From an uncultured Rhodospirillales bacterium (lineage in GTDB: Bacteria > Pseudomonadota > Alphaproteobacteria > Acetobacterales > Acetobacteraceae), in the NCBI GenBank assembly GCA_903927465.1, contig CAIYMY010000020.1:1-64000 (forward strand): 64,000 bases of DNA, given 5' to 3'. Shown here in pieces: positions 33,688 to 39,371 of the stretch; position 1 is the first letter of the stretch, and every line of letters starts with the position of its first letter. Position numbers and translations under genes: made by a program. Below the pieces are notes generated by a model. The model had not been told where the DNA came from and made no database searches. It worked only from the letters and a program-made list of their open reading frames with translations.

Positions 33688-34574
33688 GCCTTGCCCTTTC
33701 GCGGCCAGGTTGCAATCAACACGCTCAGCATCATCAGCGCGAAGCCTATGGCGTGGATGGTGGTAAAGGCTTCCTGCAAGATCACCACTGCCACCAGCGC
33801 AGCGGTCGCGGGCAGGAAGGCAGTGAAGATGCCAGCAACACCGGCACCCACACGCTTCAGGCCCGCGTACCAGAGCAGCAGGCAAAGCACACTCGCCGTC
33901 ACGCTATGAAACACCAGCAACGCCGCAAGGCGAGGATCTGCCAGCGCGGCGATGCTGGCAATATCCGGCAAGGCAAAGGGGGCGAGCATCATGGCTGAGA
34001 AAATCTGCATCCAAAGGCTTGCCGTGATCACGCCAACGCGGCCCACGATGCGCCGCGCCAGCAGCACGTAAAGCGCTTCGCCAATCACGCCGCCGAAGAT
34101 CAGCAGATTGCCAAGGACAGACCCCGCAGTCCCCTCACTGTTGCGCGCAATCGTCATCGCCGCCATGCCGAAGGCCGCCAGGCTGACCGCAATCCATTGG
34201 GGCGGCATCAGGCGTTCGCGCAGCCAAAAGGCGCTGCCCAAAGCGACCACCGCGGGCAGGCTTGCCAGCACCAGCCCGCCTTCCAACGCCGAGGTCAGGC
34301 GCAAGCCCGCCAGCAAGCCCGCATTATAGATCACGGTGCCAAATAGTGCCTGCCAGGCAAGGTTGCGCATGACCCCGCCCTCAGGCCGTGGCGCAGCTTC
34401 CAACAGGCGCGCAAGGGGCCAGAGCAATGCCACCGCCAAAACGCAACGCAAAAAAGCGATCATCGGAATGGGCAGCGCTTCCGCGAGCAATTTTGCAACC
34501 GCGACATTGGCGCCGACCAGCGCCATGGACGCCGCCAATTGCAGATAAGCGATGCGCGGCGCGCCCGGCGTCAC
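33684..34574 (-). CDS. DMT/EamA family transporter
   Basis: 10-TM pattern, two EamA-like halves. Confidence 0.9.
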   Translation of the reverse strand: MTPGAPRIAYLQLAASMALVGANVAVAKLLAEALPIPMIAFLRCVLAVALLWPLARLLEAAPRPEGGVMRNLAWQALFGTVIYNAGLLAGLRLTSALEGGLVLASLPAVVALGSAFWLRERLMPPQWIAVSLAAFGMAAMTIARNSEGTAGSVLGNLLIFGGVIGEALYVLLARRIVGRVGVITASLWMQIFSAMMLAPFALPDIASIAALADPRLAALLVFHSVTASVLCLLLWYAGLKRVGAGVAGIFTAFLPATAALVAVVILQEAFTTIHAIGFALMMLSVLIATWPRKGKA

Positions 34575-35734
34575 GCCGTCTCATCCGCCTGACGAAAGGG
34601 GGAAAGTGTGGCGAGCGCGGCCATTTCGCGTTCCATCGCCGAGCGTTCGCGCGCAAGGAATTCATCCACCGCGCGGGACAGCCCGGGATGTGCGATCCAA
34701 TGCGCGGAATAGGTCGGCACGGGCAGATAGCCGCGCTGGATTTTATGCTCACCCTGCGCGCCCGCTTCGACGCGCGGAATGCCATGCGCAATCGCGAAAT
34801 CCATTGCCATGTAATAGCAAAGTTCAAAATGCAAAAAGGGCACATCCACAATGGCGCCCCAGTTGCGGCCATAAATCGCATCGCGCCCGATCAGATTAAG
34901 CGCAGCGGCGACGGGTTCTCCATCACGCTCCGCCACCATTAGCAGCACGCGATCACCGAGCCTTTCACCAAGCAGTGGCCAAAAAGCCCGCGTGAGATAG
35001 GCGCTGCGGCCCCATTTCTTGTCAGTGGTGGCCTGATAGAAGCGGTGAAAGGCCTGCCAATGGCGGGGCGTGATTTCTGCCCCGCGCAATGTGCGCAGCG
35101 TCAGCCCTGCCGCCTGCACATCTCGCCTTTCACGCTTCAGCGCCTTGCGCTTGCGCGATGCCAAAGCGCCCAGGAAATCATCAAAATGGCGATAGCCCGG
35201 ATTGGCCCAATGGAACTGCGTGCCAAGCCTTTGCAGCCAACCGGCATCACCCAAGGCGCGCCATTCGGCTTCTGTGCAGAAGGTGGCATGGACCGATGAT
35301 GCGCCAATACCCTCGCAGGCCTGCACCAAGGCGCCAGCCAAAACATCCGGCCCAAAGCCGGCTTCGGGATGGATCAGCAGGCGCGGGCCGGGCACAGGGC
35401 TGAAGGGCGCGGCCACTTGCAGCTTTGGATAGTAATCCCCACCGGCGCGTTCCAAAGCATCCGCCCAGCCATGGTCGAACACATATTCGCCCTGGGAGTG
35501 GGATTTGGCATAGGCCGGCGCGCAAGCAAGCACGCGCCCGGCGGCGTCACGCAACGCGGCGTGTTGCGGCAGCCAGCCACGTTCAGCAACCGCGCTGCCG
35601 CTTTCTTCCAGCGCCAACAGAAAGGCGTGGCTCACAAACGGATTGTTACCGCCCGCACAGGCATCCCAATCGCACGCCGGGATTTCAGCAATGGCGCGAT
35701 GCAGGGTCAGCGACAATTCGGATGGGCTGGTCAT
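34571..35734 (-). CDS. GNAT-family/peptidogalycan-biosynthesis-like N-acetyltransferase (DUF482-like)
   Basis: HATFCTEAEWRAL, QFHWANPGYRHFDDFLGALASRKRKALKRER, GAQGEHKIQRGYLPVPTYSAHWIAHPGL. Confidence 0.88.
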   Translation of the reverse strand: MTSPSELSLTLHRAIAEIPACDWDACAGGNNPFVSHAFLLALEESGSAVAERGWLPQHAALRDAAGRVLACAPAYAKSHSQGEYVFDHGWADALERAGGDYYPKLQVAAPFSPVPGPRLLIHPEAGFGPDVLAGALVQACEGIGASSVHATFCTEAEWRALGDAGWLQRLGTQFHWANPGYRHFDDFLGALASRKRKALKRERRDVQAAGLTLRTLRGAEITPRHWQAFHRFYQATTDKKWGRSAYLTRAFWPLLGERLGDRVLLMVAERDGEPVAAALNLIGRDAIYGRNWGAIVDVPFLHFELCYYMAMDFAIAHGIPRVEAGAQGEHKIQRGYLPVPTYSAHWIAHPGLSRAVDEFLARERSAMEREMAALATLSPFRQADETA

Positions 35735-35779
35735 GCCCCTTGATGTCGTCACGGTGCCGGAGACAGCAAGCCCCGCACG

Positions 35780-36244
35780 TCACCCAATCTCAAACATGCC
35801 TTCCACTTCCACCGCCGCATCACCGGGGAGCGAAGGCACGCCAATGGTGGTCCGCGCATGGCGTCCGACATCGCCAAACACTTCCACCGCCAGATCGGAA
35901 GCGCCATTCATCACCAGCGCATGCTGGGTAAATTCAGCCGGTGCGGCAATGAAGCCGCCAAGGCGCACAACGCGCGTCACGTTATCCAGATCTCCGGCGG
36001 CGGCCTTCAACTGCGCCAGCAGATTGATAAAGCAAAGCCGCGCCGCCTCGCGCCCCACTTCAATGGAAACGCCCGCGCCCAGCTTGCCAGTATAGGCAAT
36101 CTTGCCATCACGCACCGGCACCTGGCCGGAAATCACCACCAGCTTTCCGCTGATATTGAAAGGGATGTAATTCGCAATCGGTGCCGCCGGCGTTGGCAAT
36201 ACAATGCCAAGGGTAGCAAGCTTCGCTTCGATTTTACCGGCCAT
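35780..36244 (-). CDS. RidA/YjgF family protein (second copy)
   Basis: LVVISGQVPVRDGKIAYTGKLG; GDVGRHARTTIGVPSLPGDAAVEVEGMFEIG. Confidence 0.88.
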   Translation of the reverse strand: MAGKIEAKLATLGIVLPTPAAPIANYIPFNISGKLVVISGQVPVRDGKIAYTGKLGAGVSIEVGREAARLCFINLLAQLKAAAGDLDNVTRVVRLGGFIAAPAEFTQHALVMNGASDLAVEVFGDVGRHARTTIGVPSLPGDAAVEVEGMFEIG

Positions 36245-36269: not shown

Positions 36270-37766
36270 TTACGCTGCAGGGCGCAAATGGCGGCGCAAC
36301 CGAGGCGAAGGATGCGCCGGCAATTCCAACGGAAGCAAGGGCAGCACCGTGGGGCGCGGTTGCAGCGTTTCTTCTTCTACCGGGTCCGGCAAATCCTCGC
36401 GCCCCAGATAATCGCGCGCTAGCCGCCTAAAGGCCCAATCCAGCACGGAAGTCGCGCGGCGAATGCCCGCATCGCCTTCCACCGCACCGCCATGGCCAGG
36501 CGCATAGGCATGGGCGTTGACGAAGCTCGCCAAGGGCACGCCCTGCGCCAGGCCAAGCGATACGGCCTGGGCCAGGGCTTCCATCAAGGCGCGCGTCATC
36601 GCCGCTTCACGTGGGAGGGAGAAGGAAATCTCCCGCAAATGGCCGCGATCATCTTCAATGGCGCGCATCGCCACCCGATTGCCGGCAATGGCCACGCGCC
36701 AGCAGCGATTGACTGGCACATGGATCGGCCGCGGTGCAGCGCGGCGGACTTCGAGCATATCCGCCGGGGCGGGCATCGCGGGCGGCGGCGCATCCAGGAA
36801 GGGCATGACTGCCGCTTCCATCGCGCGGCGGGCCTGCGGTGCCACGGGGGCGAGCAGCCATGCGGCATCAACGCCGGCGCGTTCAGCCGCGCGGGTTGGC
36901 ACTTGCGTGACGCGCCCATCCTCGCCGCGCGCTGGGCGGCTTGCGCCAGGGGCTGGGGCAATGCCGGCGCTTTCCGCGCCAATCAAAGCTTCAACCGCAT
37001 CGGCGGGGGCCAAGGCAATACAGCCGCGATGCCGCAAACCGGGGGAAGAAGCCGCCGCCGCCAAAGCCGCACGCGCAGCCTTGGCAAGGCCAGGGATGGC
37101 GGTTTCCTCGGGTGGGGTCGGGCAGATCAGCGCCACCGCATGGCGTGGGCCGAAACGGGTGGCGAGCCGGCCGGATTCCGCCTCAGCAGCACCACGCGTC
37201 AGGCCGGCAATGGCTGCGGCGACATCGCGCGCCTCATTGCTGTCATAACCCAGGCCGAAACCGGCCAGCAGCCCGGCCAAATCGGCAAAGCCAAGGCGCA
37301 GGCTTTCCACCTTGCCATGGCCCCAAATATCGAGCGTTTGCACCGCAAGCTGACAGGCCGCGCGATAGGCCGGCGCGTCGAAGCCGCCTTCCCCATCCAG
37401 GAAGGCCGGCAGGTTGAGCACAAAACGCCCCTCAGCGCGGGCATCGCGCCAGATCTCGGCCCCGGGCGCGCCGCGCCGGGCCAGAATCAAGGAACGCAGG
37501 CCAGCGGCCAGGCTTTCCGCCGCATCGGCGCCATCCAACAAGCCAAGGCGCCGCCCGCGGAGCGTCAGGCGTTGAATCCAGGCCTCCGCCACGCTTGGTA
37601 ACGTGGCCGGGCCGCTCCCTGGGGCGAGCGCTGCCAGCGCCTCCCCGGCTTCATCTTCCCAAGGCACGGGGATAGCCACAGCGCGTGGCGGCGAATCAGG
37701 ATCCGCCCCCGCTTTCAAGCGCCGCAGCGCAACCCCAGCCCAGATGGTTCCAACAATGCCTGCCAT
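36270..37766 (-). CDS. TSCPD-domain protein: truncated, apparently non-catalytic class II ribonucleotide reductase (NrdJ) relative
   Basis: FVLNLPAFLDGEGGFDAPAYRAACQLAV...VESLRLGFADLAGLLAGFGLGYDSNEARDVAAAIAGLTRGAAEAES and C-term GHLREISFSLPREAAMTRALMEALAQAVSLGLAQGVPLASFV...VEGDAGIRRATSVLDWAFRRLARDYLGREDL match NrdJ blocks; catalytic NPCGE loop absent. Confidence 0.8.
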   Translation of the reverse strand: MAGIVGTIWAGVALRRLKAGADPDSPPRAVAIPVPWEDEAGEALAALAPGSGPATLPSVAEAWIQRLTLRGRRLGLLDGADAAESLAAGLRSLILARRGAPGAEIWRDARAEGRFVLNLPAFLDGEGGFDAPAYRAACQLAVQTLDIWGHGKVESLRLGFADLAGLLAGFGLGYDSNEARDVAAAIAGLTRGAAEAESGRLATRFGPRHAVALICPTPPEETAIPGLAKAARAALAAAASSPGLRHRGCIALAPADAVEALIGAESAGIAPAPGASRPARGEDGRVTQVPTRAAERAGVDAAWLLAPVAPQARRAMEAAVMPFLDAPPPAMPAPADMLEVRRAAPRPIHVPVNRCWRVAIAGNRVAMRAIEDDRGHLREISFSLPREAAMTRALMEALAQAVSLGLAQGVPLASFVNAHAYAPGHGGAVEGDAGIRRATSVLDWAFRRLARDYLGREDLPDPVEEETLQPRPTVLPLLPLELPAHPSPRLRRHLRPAA

Positions 37767-37931: not shown

Positions 37932-38273
37932 ATGCAGTTGCTCAGTACTCTGTTTATCCGCCTCACCAGCCGCAAGGTTGGGCAGGACCGCTTTGGGAAT
38001 ACCTATTGGGAAGCCCGCGGCCGCCGGGATTCCTATGGCCGCCCCATGCGGCGGGTGCTTTACGCGAAGGAAGCCCAAGCTTCTGCCGTGCCGGCGGAAT
38101 GGTGGGGCTGGCTGCACCACACCACGGAAAACCCCCTGCCCGAGGATGCGCCGCGCCGCGCCTGGCAGAAGGAGCATCTGCCCAATATGACCGGCACGCC
38201 CGAAGCCTGGCGGCCAGTGAACCCCGTGACCAACCGTGGCGGGGATTACGAAGCCTGGACCCCGGGGCGCTGA
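37932..38273 (+). CDS. NADH:ubiquinone oxidoreductase 17.2 kDa (NDUFA12-like) subunit
   Basis: VGQDRFGNTYWEARG...DSYGRPMRRVLY, WWGWLHHTTENPLP, PYNMTGTP-like region; ATG at 37932. Confidence 0.93.
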   Translation: MQLLSTLFIRLTSRKVGQDRFGNTYWEARGRRDSYGRPMRRVLYAKEAQASAVPAEWWGWLHHTTENPLPEDAPRRAWQKEHLPNMTGTPEAWRPVNPVTNRGGDYEAWTPGR

Positions 38274-38299: not shown

Positions 38300-38794
38300 A
38301 TGCAAAAGCGCAGTCTGGCTGAGATTTTGACCGGTTTGGTCGTGCTGGCCATTGCCGCAACCTTTCTGGGCTATGCCGTGACCAGCACGGGGCGCAGCCT
38401 TTCTGGGCCCGGGATGAACCTCACCGCGAAGTTTGATCGGATTGATGGGCTCGGTCAGGGCGCCGATGTGCGCATTGCCGGCGTGAAGGTTGGGCAGGTT
38501 GTGGCGCAACGCATTGATCCGGCAAGCTTCCTGGCTGTCCTGACGCTGCGCGTAGATGCTGGGCTGAAGCTGCCGCATGACACCTCGGCCGAGATTTCCA
38601 GCGAAGGTTTGCTCGGCGGCAAATATGTTGCGCTGGTGCCGGGTGGCGATACGCGCATCCTGCGGGACGGCAGTGAGATCACCATCACGCAAAGTGCTAT
38701 CAATCTGGAAAGCCTGTTGGGGCGGTTCATTTTCTCGGCGGGTGAGACAAATCAGCGCGGCAATCAGGAAAACGCGCCGGCCACGCCACGATGA
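38300..38794 (+). CDS. mlaD: Outer-membrane lipid asymmetry protein MlaD (MCE domain)
   Basis: LTAKFDRIDGLGQGADVRIAGVKVGQVV; GLLGGKYVALVPGGD. Confidence 0.93.
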   Translation: MQKRSLAEILTGLVVLAIAATFLGYAVTSTGRSLSGPGMNLTAKFDRIDGLGQGADVRIAGVKVGQVVAQRIDPASFLAVLTLRVDAGLKLPHDTSAEISSEGLLGGKYVALVPGGDTRILRDGSEITITQSAINLESLLGRFIFSAGETNQRGNQENAPATPR

Positions 38795-39015
38795 AGCCCT
38801 TGCCCAAGCCACCTGCCGCCTGGCCTGGGGCGGATGGGAAGCCTGTGTCATGCAATGAAAAACTCAAGATGCTCACGGAAAACCACAAGGAAGCGGTAAC
38901 GGTCCTGCACGATATTCTTGAAGACGCCGTGCTGATGGGCGTTGATGAGGCTGCGATGCGCGCGATTTTGCAGGAACTGATCGCGGCTTTGCCCAGCCCG
39001 AAGCGGGGCGCATGA
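38791..39015 (+). CDS. Small uncharacterised protein, 74 aa
   Basis: ATGA overlap with mlaD and 4-bp overlap with following DUF2155 gene. Confidence 0.7.
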   Translation: MKPLPKPPAAWPGADGKPVSCNEKLKMLTENHKEAVTVLHDILEDAVLMGVDEAAMRAILQELIAALPSPKRGA

Positions 39016-39371
39016 AAAAGCTTTTGGCTTTGGCGCTGTTTTGCCTGCCAAGTCTTGCGCAGGCGCAGGATTGGGTGCCGCGCCAGCAGGCACGCGTCCA
39101 GGCTTTGGATAAGGTGACCGCGCGTGTGACGGTACTGGAAGGCCGCGTTGGGGAAAGCCTGCGCTTTGGCACGCTCACGATCCGCATCGGCGCCTGCCAA
39201 GCGCGCCCGCCCACCGAAGTTCCAGATTCCGCCGCCTGGTTTGAAATGACCGATAGCCGCGCGCCGCGGGGCAGCCCGCCCGCCTTTCGTGGCTGGATGT
39301 TCGCCGATGCGCCGGGCGTGAGCATGTTGGAACACCCTGTCTATGATGTGCGTATTCTAAACTGTCGCTGA
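39012..39371 (+). CDS. DUF2155 domain-containing secreted protein
   Basis: Signal peptide; ARVQALDKVTARVTVLEGRVGESLRFGTLTIRIGACQARPP; FRGWMFADAPGVSMLEHPVYDVRILNC. Confidence 0.92.
   Translation: MKKLLALALFCLPSLAQAQDWVPRQQARVQALDKVTARVTVLEGRVGESLRFGTLTIRIGACQARPPTEVPDSAAWFEMTDSRAPRGSPPAFRGWMFADAPGVSMLEHPVYDVRILNCR

Follow-up and report, generated by a model that had tools for sequence, protein, structure and literature searches.

Class II ribonucleotide reductases and inactive homologues

The class II ribonucleotide reductase (RNR) NrdJ carries a C-terminal re-reduction array of six cysteines, and the redox pair of the S. nassauensis enzyme is formed by Cys933 and Cys945 (PMC5704485). The C-terminal domain is also needed for the NrdJ oligomers that are induced by dATP and dGTP, and a third effector site has been inferred for S. 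nassauensis NrdJ (PMC5704485). The first half of this domain is predicted to be IscU-like and has been proposed to cause oligomerisation through dimerisation, and according to a 2022 survey of RNR extensions no role has been reported for this domain in class II RNRs (PMC9669993). The TSCPD region is equated here with the IscU-like C-terminal domain reported for long class II RNRs (PMC9669993). In Pseudomonas aeruginosa the class II RNR is split, and NrdJb forms its separate C-terminal subunit (PMC4520616). The cytomegalovirus proteins UL45 and M45 are inactive homologues of the RNR large subunit with new functions (PMC5469499). The literature covered, with subscription papers and preprints outside its scope, describes neither a family of dead bacterial NrdJ nor a repeated origin of one.

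The gene considered here, referred to as pseudo-NrdJ, lies in a stretch of 64,000 nucleotides from an uncultured member of the Acetobacteraceae (the window). The best explanation overall, with a probability of roughly 0.6, is that it is a remnant of nrdJ kept in place as a non-catalytic binding or oligomerisation module.

Anatomy of the window gene

The pseudo-NrdJ gene occupies positions 36270..37766 on the minus strand; the reading frame starts with ATG and encodes 498 amino acids, and these coordinates are exact. The annotation is based on Pfam, NCBIfam, profile-profile alignment and a dN/dS of 0.06-0.09 against close relatives; no dedicated Pfam or NCBIfam entry was found. In Pfam, residues 117-272 match the post-finger-loop half of the RNR barrel (2.5e-5, just under the gathering score) and residues 370-452 match TSCPD (PF12637; 5.2e-5; 23.9 bits vs a gathering score of 22.8). 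The NCBIfam model of alphaproteobacterial B12-dependent RNR, NF005736, matches at 1e-28, best over NrdJ 983-1087. A sequence-only reading of the window had aligned the product by eye with the NrdJ blocks that follow the finger loop, and this homology is confirmed by hhalign profile-profile alignment against 31 full-length NrdJ sequences (E 5.7e-44; residues 116-470 against NrdJ 510-1112, collinear, with internal deletions), in which APADAV aligns with APTGTI and AGIAP with TGIEP. A second hhalign match, residues 8-108 against NrdJ 33-177, is weak alone (E 0.012) and collinear with the first. The profile of 34 relatives reaches the solved NrdJ chains 7b9p and 7b9q at 3.3e-14 and enters at chain residue 492, just past the finger loop.

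The N-terminal segment, residues 8-108 (37443..37745, minus strand), contains the invariant DPD, P33, W36 and W106 and is a probable remnant of the NrdJ N-terminal domain by that second match; the first ~100 amino acids are thus probably NrdJ-derived as well. It is followed by a junction at residues 108-116 (37419..37445, minus strand), placed by the hhalign end points and by motif positions in the reference NrdJ L125, where NrdJ ~178-509 is missing. The barrel remnant at residues 116-276 (36939..37421, minus strand) corresponds to NrdJ ~510-700 in Pfam, hhalign and the 7b9p/7b9q match, and its APTGTI loop is degenerate. The TSCPD or IscU-like domain spans residues 350-460 (36387..36719, minus strand; NrdJ ~988-1100) and is supported by alignment, by a low-confidence model and by PF12637 matches in 34/34 members of the window family at E <= 0.01. 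The C-terminal tail, residues 461-498 (36273..36386, minus strand), replaces the zinc ribbon and cysteine array of NrdJ and has a conserved LPL motif, in which L478 and P479 do not vary among 34 members. Taken together, the alignments describe pseudo-NrdJ as NrdJ that has lost ~178-509 at one junction and much of ~700-985, with the cysteine array exchanged for a short tail.

The tail motif in the zinc ribbon's place, PLLPLDLP...LRLV (window 36273-36386), is conserved in the family and might be a short binding motif.

Structure prediction was limited by the shallow alignment of related loci, and the whole-protein model (pLDDT 43) is too poor for use. A model of TSCPD only (pLDDT 58) has IscU/SufU as its best Foldseek matches at E 0.16 or worse, a result that is of low confidence and not significant alone. 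A sequence search of the PDB gave no relatives of the TSCPD domain.

Loss of catalytic residues and the question of nucleotide sensing

The first deletion spans the active-site cysteines (218 and 506), the NPCSE loop (493-497) and specificity loop 2 (GGTTRR, from 290), in positions of the reference NrdJ L125. Profile-profile and motif alignment found no counterpart in pseudo-NrdJ of the NPCSE/TACNL finger loop or of the C-terminal cysteines. The finger-loop thiyl cysteine with its Asn and Glu neighbours (NPCSE) is absent from the sequence, both positions of the active-site redox cysteine pair are missing or substituted, and the re-reduction cysteine array was not found in the tail. The window protein has four cysteines, none conserved among relatives, and two of the relatives, L052 and L082, are cysteine-free, which excludes thiyl-radical catalysis in those members. 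The sequence-only reading was correct that the radical loop and C-terminal cysteines are gone and that the four remaining cysteines are non-catalytic. From its residues, pseudo-NrdJ is predicted to be unable to reduce nucleotides.

These losses also bear on the proposal of the sequence-only reading that pseudo-NrdJ is a nucleotide sensor, here one which binds dNTP or ATP and signals elsewhere. The proposal draws on S. nassauensis NrdJ, with its dATP/dGTP-induced oligomers that depend on the C-terminal domain and its inferred third effector site (PMC5704485), but the canonical specificity loop lies inside the deleted stretch and Pfam finds no ATP-cone in pseudo-NrdJ or in the host's own NrdA. 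With the RNR allosteric sites gone, sensing through them is unlikely. The C-terminal domain itself may have a dNTP site, given the third effector site inferred in PMC5704485, but a sensor of any kind is considered quite improbable.

A locus shared with full-length nrdJ

The neighbours of pseudo-NrdJ were identified by Pfam and synteny. A RidA-family gene (35780..36244, minus strand; PF14588/PF01042) lies 25 bp downstream on the same strand, and a FemAB-like gene (34571..35752, minus strand; PF04339) is the second conserved downstream neighbour. The locus markers on the other side are on the plus strand: the divergent NDUFA12 gene (37932..38273; PF05071; start codon from sequence), the MlaD gene (38300..38794; PF02470) and the DUF2155 gene (39012..39371; PF09923). 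Across 23 Acetobacteraceae loci and the window, nearly every pseudo-NrdJ adjoins MlaD-DUF2155 (with NDUFA12) and is transcribed away from it; RidA and then FemAB usually come next downstream.

In other alphaproteobacteria, most of the loci compared have full-length nrdJ (~1,200 aa) flanked by these markers, and the RidA gene adjoins both pseudo-NrdJ and full NrdJ across genomes. Pseudo-NrdJ sits in the ancestral nrdJ locus and would therefore be nrdJ itself, shrunk in place; a 799-aa version at the same locus in another Acetobacteraceae genome (G038) is an intermediate of this shrinkage. Orthology in place is the simplest reading of the shared locus. On alignment and synteny together, descent of pseudo-NrdJ from NrdJ in this position is regarded as virtually certain.

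A frameshift or assembly artefact was considered as a source of the short frame and rejected. The adjacent catalytic piece that would have made this a broken gene was looked for and is not there: the neighbours are RidA and NDUFA12, and the same form occurs in most of 140/150 genomes.

Selection on pseudo-NrdJ

A pseudo-NrdJ match is present in 140/150 sampled Acetobacteraceae genomes and in 58/60 of a high-quality set. The matches are normally full-length frames of ~500-600 aa and stop-free in nearly all genomes; in a few the gene is missing or interrupted. Nei-Gojobori comparison of the window with close relatives gives a dN/dS of 0.06-0.09 over the whole coding sequence, with no region exceeding 0.17; for two more distant relatives, at dS above 1, the value is ~0.2. 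The 34 members share 24 invariant columns at identities down to 28%. As read from these sequences, pseudo-NrdJ is under purifying selection across the Acetobacteraceae, and the suggestion of an exapted pseudo-reductase gains support from both its NrdJ ancestry and this constraint.

Selection of this kind speaks to two further explanations. Pseudo-NrdJ could be a decaying gene with no function, as its large deletions, the loss of all catalytic residues and the few family genomes in which it is absent or interrupted would suggest; the low dN/dS, the near-universal presence of mostly stop-free frames and the invariant columns leave this hardly credible. Alternatively, the frame could be kept for its position, with translation through pseudo-NrdJ setting the expression of the downstream ridA-femAB genes. 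The 25-bp gap to ridA and the conserved gene order fit such a role, but it would conserve neither the protein sequence at dN/dS 0.06-0.09 nor the TSCPD motif, and it is given only a slim chance.

In the otherwise complete genome G126 pseudo-NrdJ has an in-frame TGA or split frame (C1:19411-20981), which could be a recent loss. For control by NrdR, the 300 nt upstream of the window gene and of 22 relatives gave no NrdR-box-like palindrome by strict core match, which is a weak negative.

Repeated decay in other alphaproteobacteria

Beyond what the sequence-only reading proposed, not only has the ancestral nrdJ shrunk in place but the same decay is repeated in the class. Outside the Acetobacteraceae, most matches of the window-family profile are to the C-terminus of intact NrdJ. 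At least eight alphaproteobacterial families besides the Acetobacteraceae carry degenerate NrdJ at this locus: f27 (1190 aa), f86 (1015 and 912 aa), f155 (808 aa), f141 (807 aa), f46 (801 aa), f73 (663 aa; its genome G221 is rated 10% contaminated), f7 (278-293 aa) and f72 (272-274 aa). The NPCSE loop is absent from the degenerate NrdJ of all eight families, and the positions of the catalytic cysteines are either missing or occupied by other residues. In an rpoB tree of 30 genomes, with sparse sampling and long or compositionally odd branches for f69, f7 and f72, the dead-NrdJ label changes seven times; well-supported branches force at least five of these changes, and a single origin appears in no bootstrap tree. 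NrdJ decay thus appears to have arisen several times within the alphaproteobacteria, with at least five changes of origin or loss.

Most dead NrdJ copies outside the Acetobacteraceae keep the TSCPD (IscU-like) domain. The f7 and f72 proteins contain little beyond the TSCPD region, which is near-identical in alignment to that of active NrdJ. In f7, f46, f86 and f141 the zinc ribbon survives with its four zinc-ligand cysteines in the CxxC...CxxC form, and both redox-pair positions, judged against Cys933 and Cys945 of S. nassauensis NrdJ, are lost. With zinc ligands kept and the redox pair lost, electron delivery has thus been dropped and the fold is, from these residues, probably retained.

The dead NrdJ loci that keep the zinc ribbon are L163, L165-L168, L171 and L116 (f86, f141, f46 and f7). 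Barrel remnants without TSCPD were also seen at the same locus, at L220:4895-6538 (G125, Acetobacteraceae genus g46), L174:5673-7865 (G235, f87) and L175:5778-8669 (G240, f92); these copies keep the barrel and lose TSCPD, the reverse of the usual pattern. In G217 (f69) a 956-aa NrdJ (L176:5703-8573) retains most catalytic residues, but its thiyl cysteine is replaced by Phe (NSFAE) and TSCPD is missing; this may represent an early stage of decay.

The working RNR of the host

Apart from pseudo-NrdJ, the window genome has a single RNR barrel, that of a 634-aa NrdA on a separate contig, where NrdB lies close by. No NrdJ, other class II RNR or NrdJa partner was found in this genome, and the working RNR, judged from gene content, is class I NrdAB. 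The earlier idea that pseudo-NrdJ is a partner of the true RNR, meaning NrdJ, therefore fails for this genome. NrdB is present in 58/60 Acetobacteraceae genomes. In G076, of this family, NrdB is absent, a different RNR-like frame is present and pseudo-NrdJ is kept.

Two genomes of one Acetobacteraceae genus, G053 (L222:4412-8011) and G130 (L223:4640-8218), have an intact full-length NrdJ besides pseudo-NrdJ. These full-length genes lie away from the ancestral locus, without its markers, and were probably re-acquired. NrdB was not detected in G130, in which pseudo-NrdJ is still kept.

Across a class sample of 116 genomes, NrdB occurs in 7/7 genomes with dead NrdJ vs 20/69 with full NrdJ (Fisher p 4e-4, a guide only since related genomes are not independent). 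This association, by which NrdAB accompanies dead NrdJ wherever it is found in the sample, has led to a further explanation: pseudo-NrdJ may bind NrdA or NrdB and regulate the class I enzyme, giving the overall-activity control that is missing from an NrdA with no ATP-cone. The 355-aa NrdB, read by eye, has no room for an N-terminal ATP-cone either. However, relaxed selection on catalysis alone would give the same association, the pseudo-NrdJ gene is not near nrdAB, and pseudo-NrdJ is kept both in G130, which has its full-length NrdJ elsewhere, and in G076, each with no NrdB. G053, with its full-length NrdJ away from the locus beside pseudo-NrdJ, also counts against a role specific to NrdAB. 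Regulation of NrdAB is considered unlikely.

A retained non-catalytic function

It is very probable that some portion of the former enzyme serves another, undescribed role. Under the preferred reading, in which the nrdJ remnant is a binding or oligomerisation module, NrdAB would supply dNTPs, making NrdJ catalysis dispensable while a non-catalytic property of NrdJ was still needed. The retained property would reside mainly in the C-terminal TSCPD/IscU-like domain, which probably self-associates, docks to a cellular partner, or both, and the barrel remnant would serve as its platform. Such a partner would predate the loss of catalysis; RidA, encoded by the co-directional neighbour, is one candidate. 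Binding or oligomerisation as the specific mechanism is put at even odds. Two observations count against a role centred on TSCPD: the degenerate same-locus copies in G235, G240 and L220 have barrel remnants only, so that the domain can be dispensed with, and purifying selection is uniform along the whole window protein, which argues against TSCPD as the sole functional part.

A wider proposal is that, in class II RNRs, the TSCPD (IscU-like) domain serves a conserved cellular function separate from ribonucleotide reduction and general among alphaproteobacteria, for which it is kept in situ and nearly or wholly stand-alone after independent losses of catalysis. This generalisation is tentative, with slightly less than an even chance. 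The retained function is not universal, since 32/59 NrdB-bearing genomes of the class lack both intact NrdJ and any copy belonging to the seven-genome set of TSCPD-keeping dead NrdJ; three of the 32 (G217, G235 and G240) have NrdJ remnants with no TSCPD.

Evolution has in effect repeated a separation experiment in which NrdJ catalysis was removed and the IscU-like domain kept. In carriers of pseudo-NrdJ that depend on NrdAB, the domain could be deleted cleanly with DNA-precursor synthesis untouched. In Acetobacteraceae, as in several further families of alphaproteobacteria, matches to NrdJ or TSCPD models should not be equated with B12-dependent RNR activity.

Comparison with known systems

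The closest known relative is the long alphaproteobacterial NrdJ (NF005736; NrdJd-type with a CRD, PMC5704485), which shares the locus, a homologous post-finger-loop barrel and TSCPD, and probably the N-terminus. In contrast to this enzyme of ~1,220 aa, the window protein has 498 aa and lacks the thiyl cysteine, the redox cysteines, the specificity loop and the C-terminal cysteine array. The NCBIfam family NF005401, 'ribonucleotide reductase-like protein' (PRK06948), is also short and RNR-like, but it matches weakly (23 bits vs a cut-off of 906) and only over the barrel stretch at residues 158-291.

NrdJb is likewise a C-terminal domain without the catalytic chain, and the 270-290-aa proteins of f7 and f72 resemble it most. 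Unlike NrdJb, the window protein keeps barrel remnants, has no NrdJa in its genome and lacks the redox cysteines on which NrdJb function is based. The IscU/SufU scaffolds are linked to it by the IscU-like character reported for the C-terminal domain in long class II RNRs (PMC9669993) and by the low-confidence model, which matches IscU/SufU first at E > 0.1, whereas the window family has no conserved cysteine ligands.

UL45 and M45 offer a parallel in which an RNR large subunit gave up catalysis and persisted in a protein-protein role. Inactive RNR homologues (UL45, PMC5469499) and a separate C-terminal subunit (NrdJb, PMC4520616) were already known. The cytomegalovirus proteins are viral, derived from class I and have unrelated partners, whereas pseudo-NrdJ is bacterial, derived from class II, recurrent and in situ.
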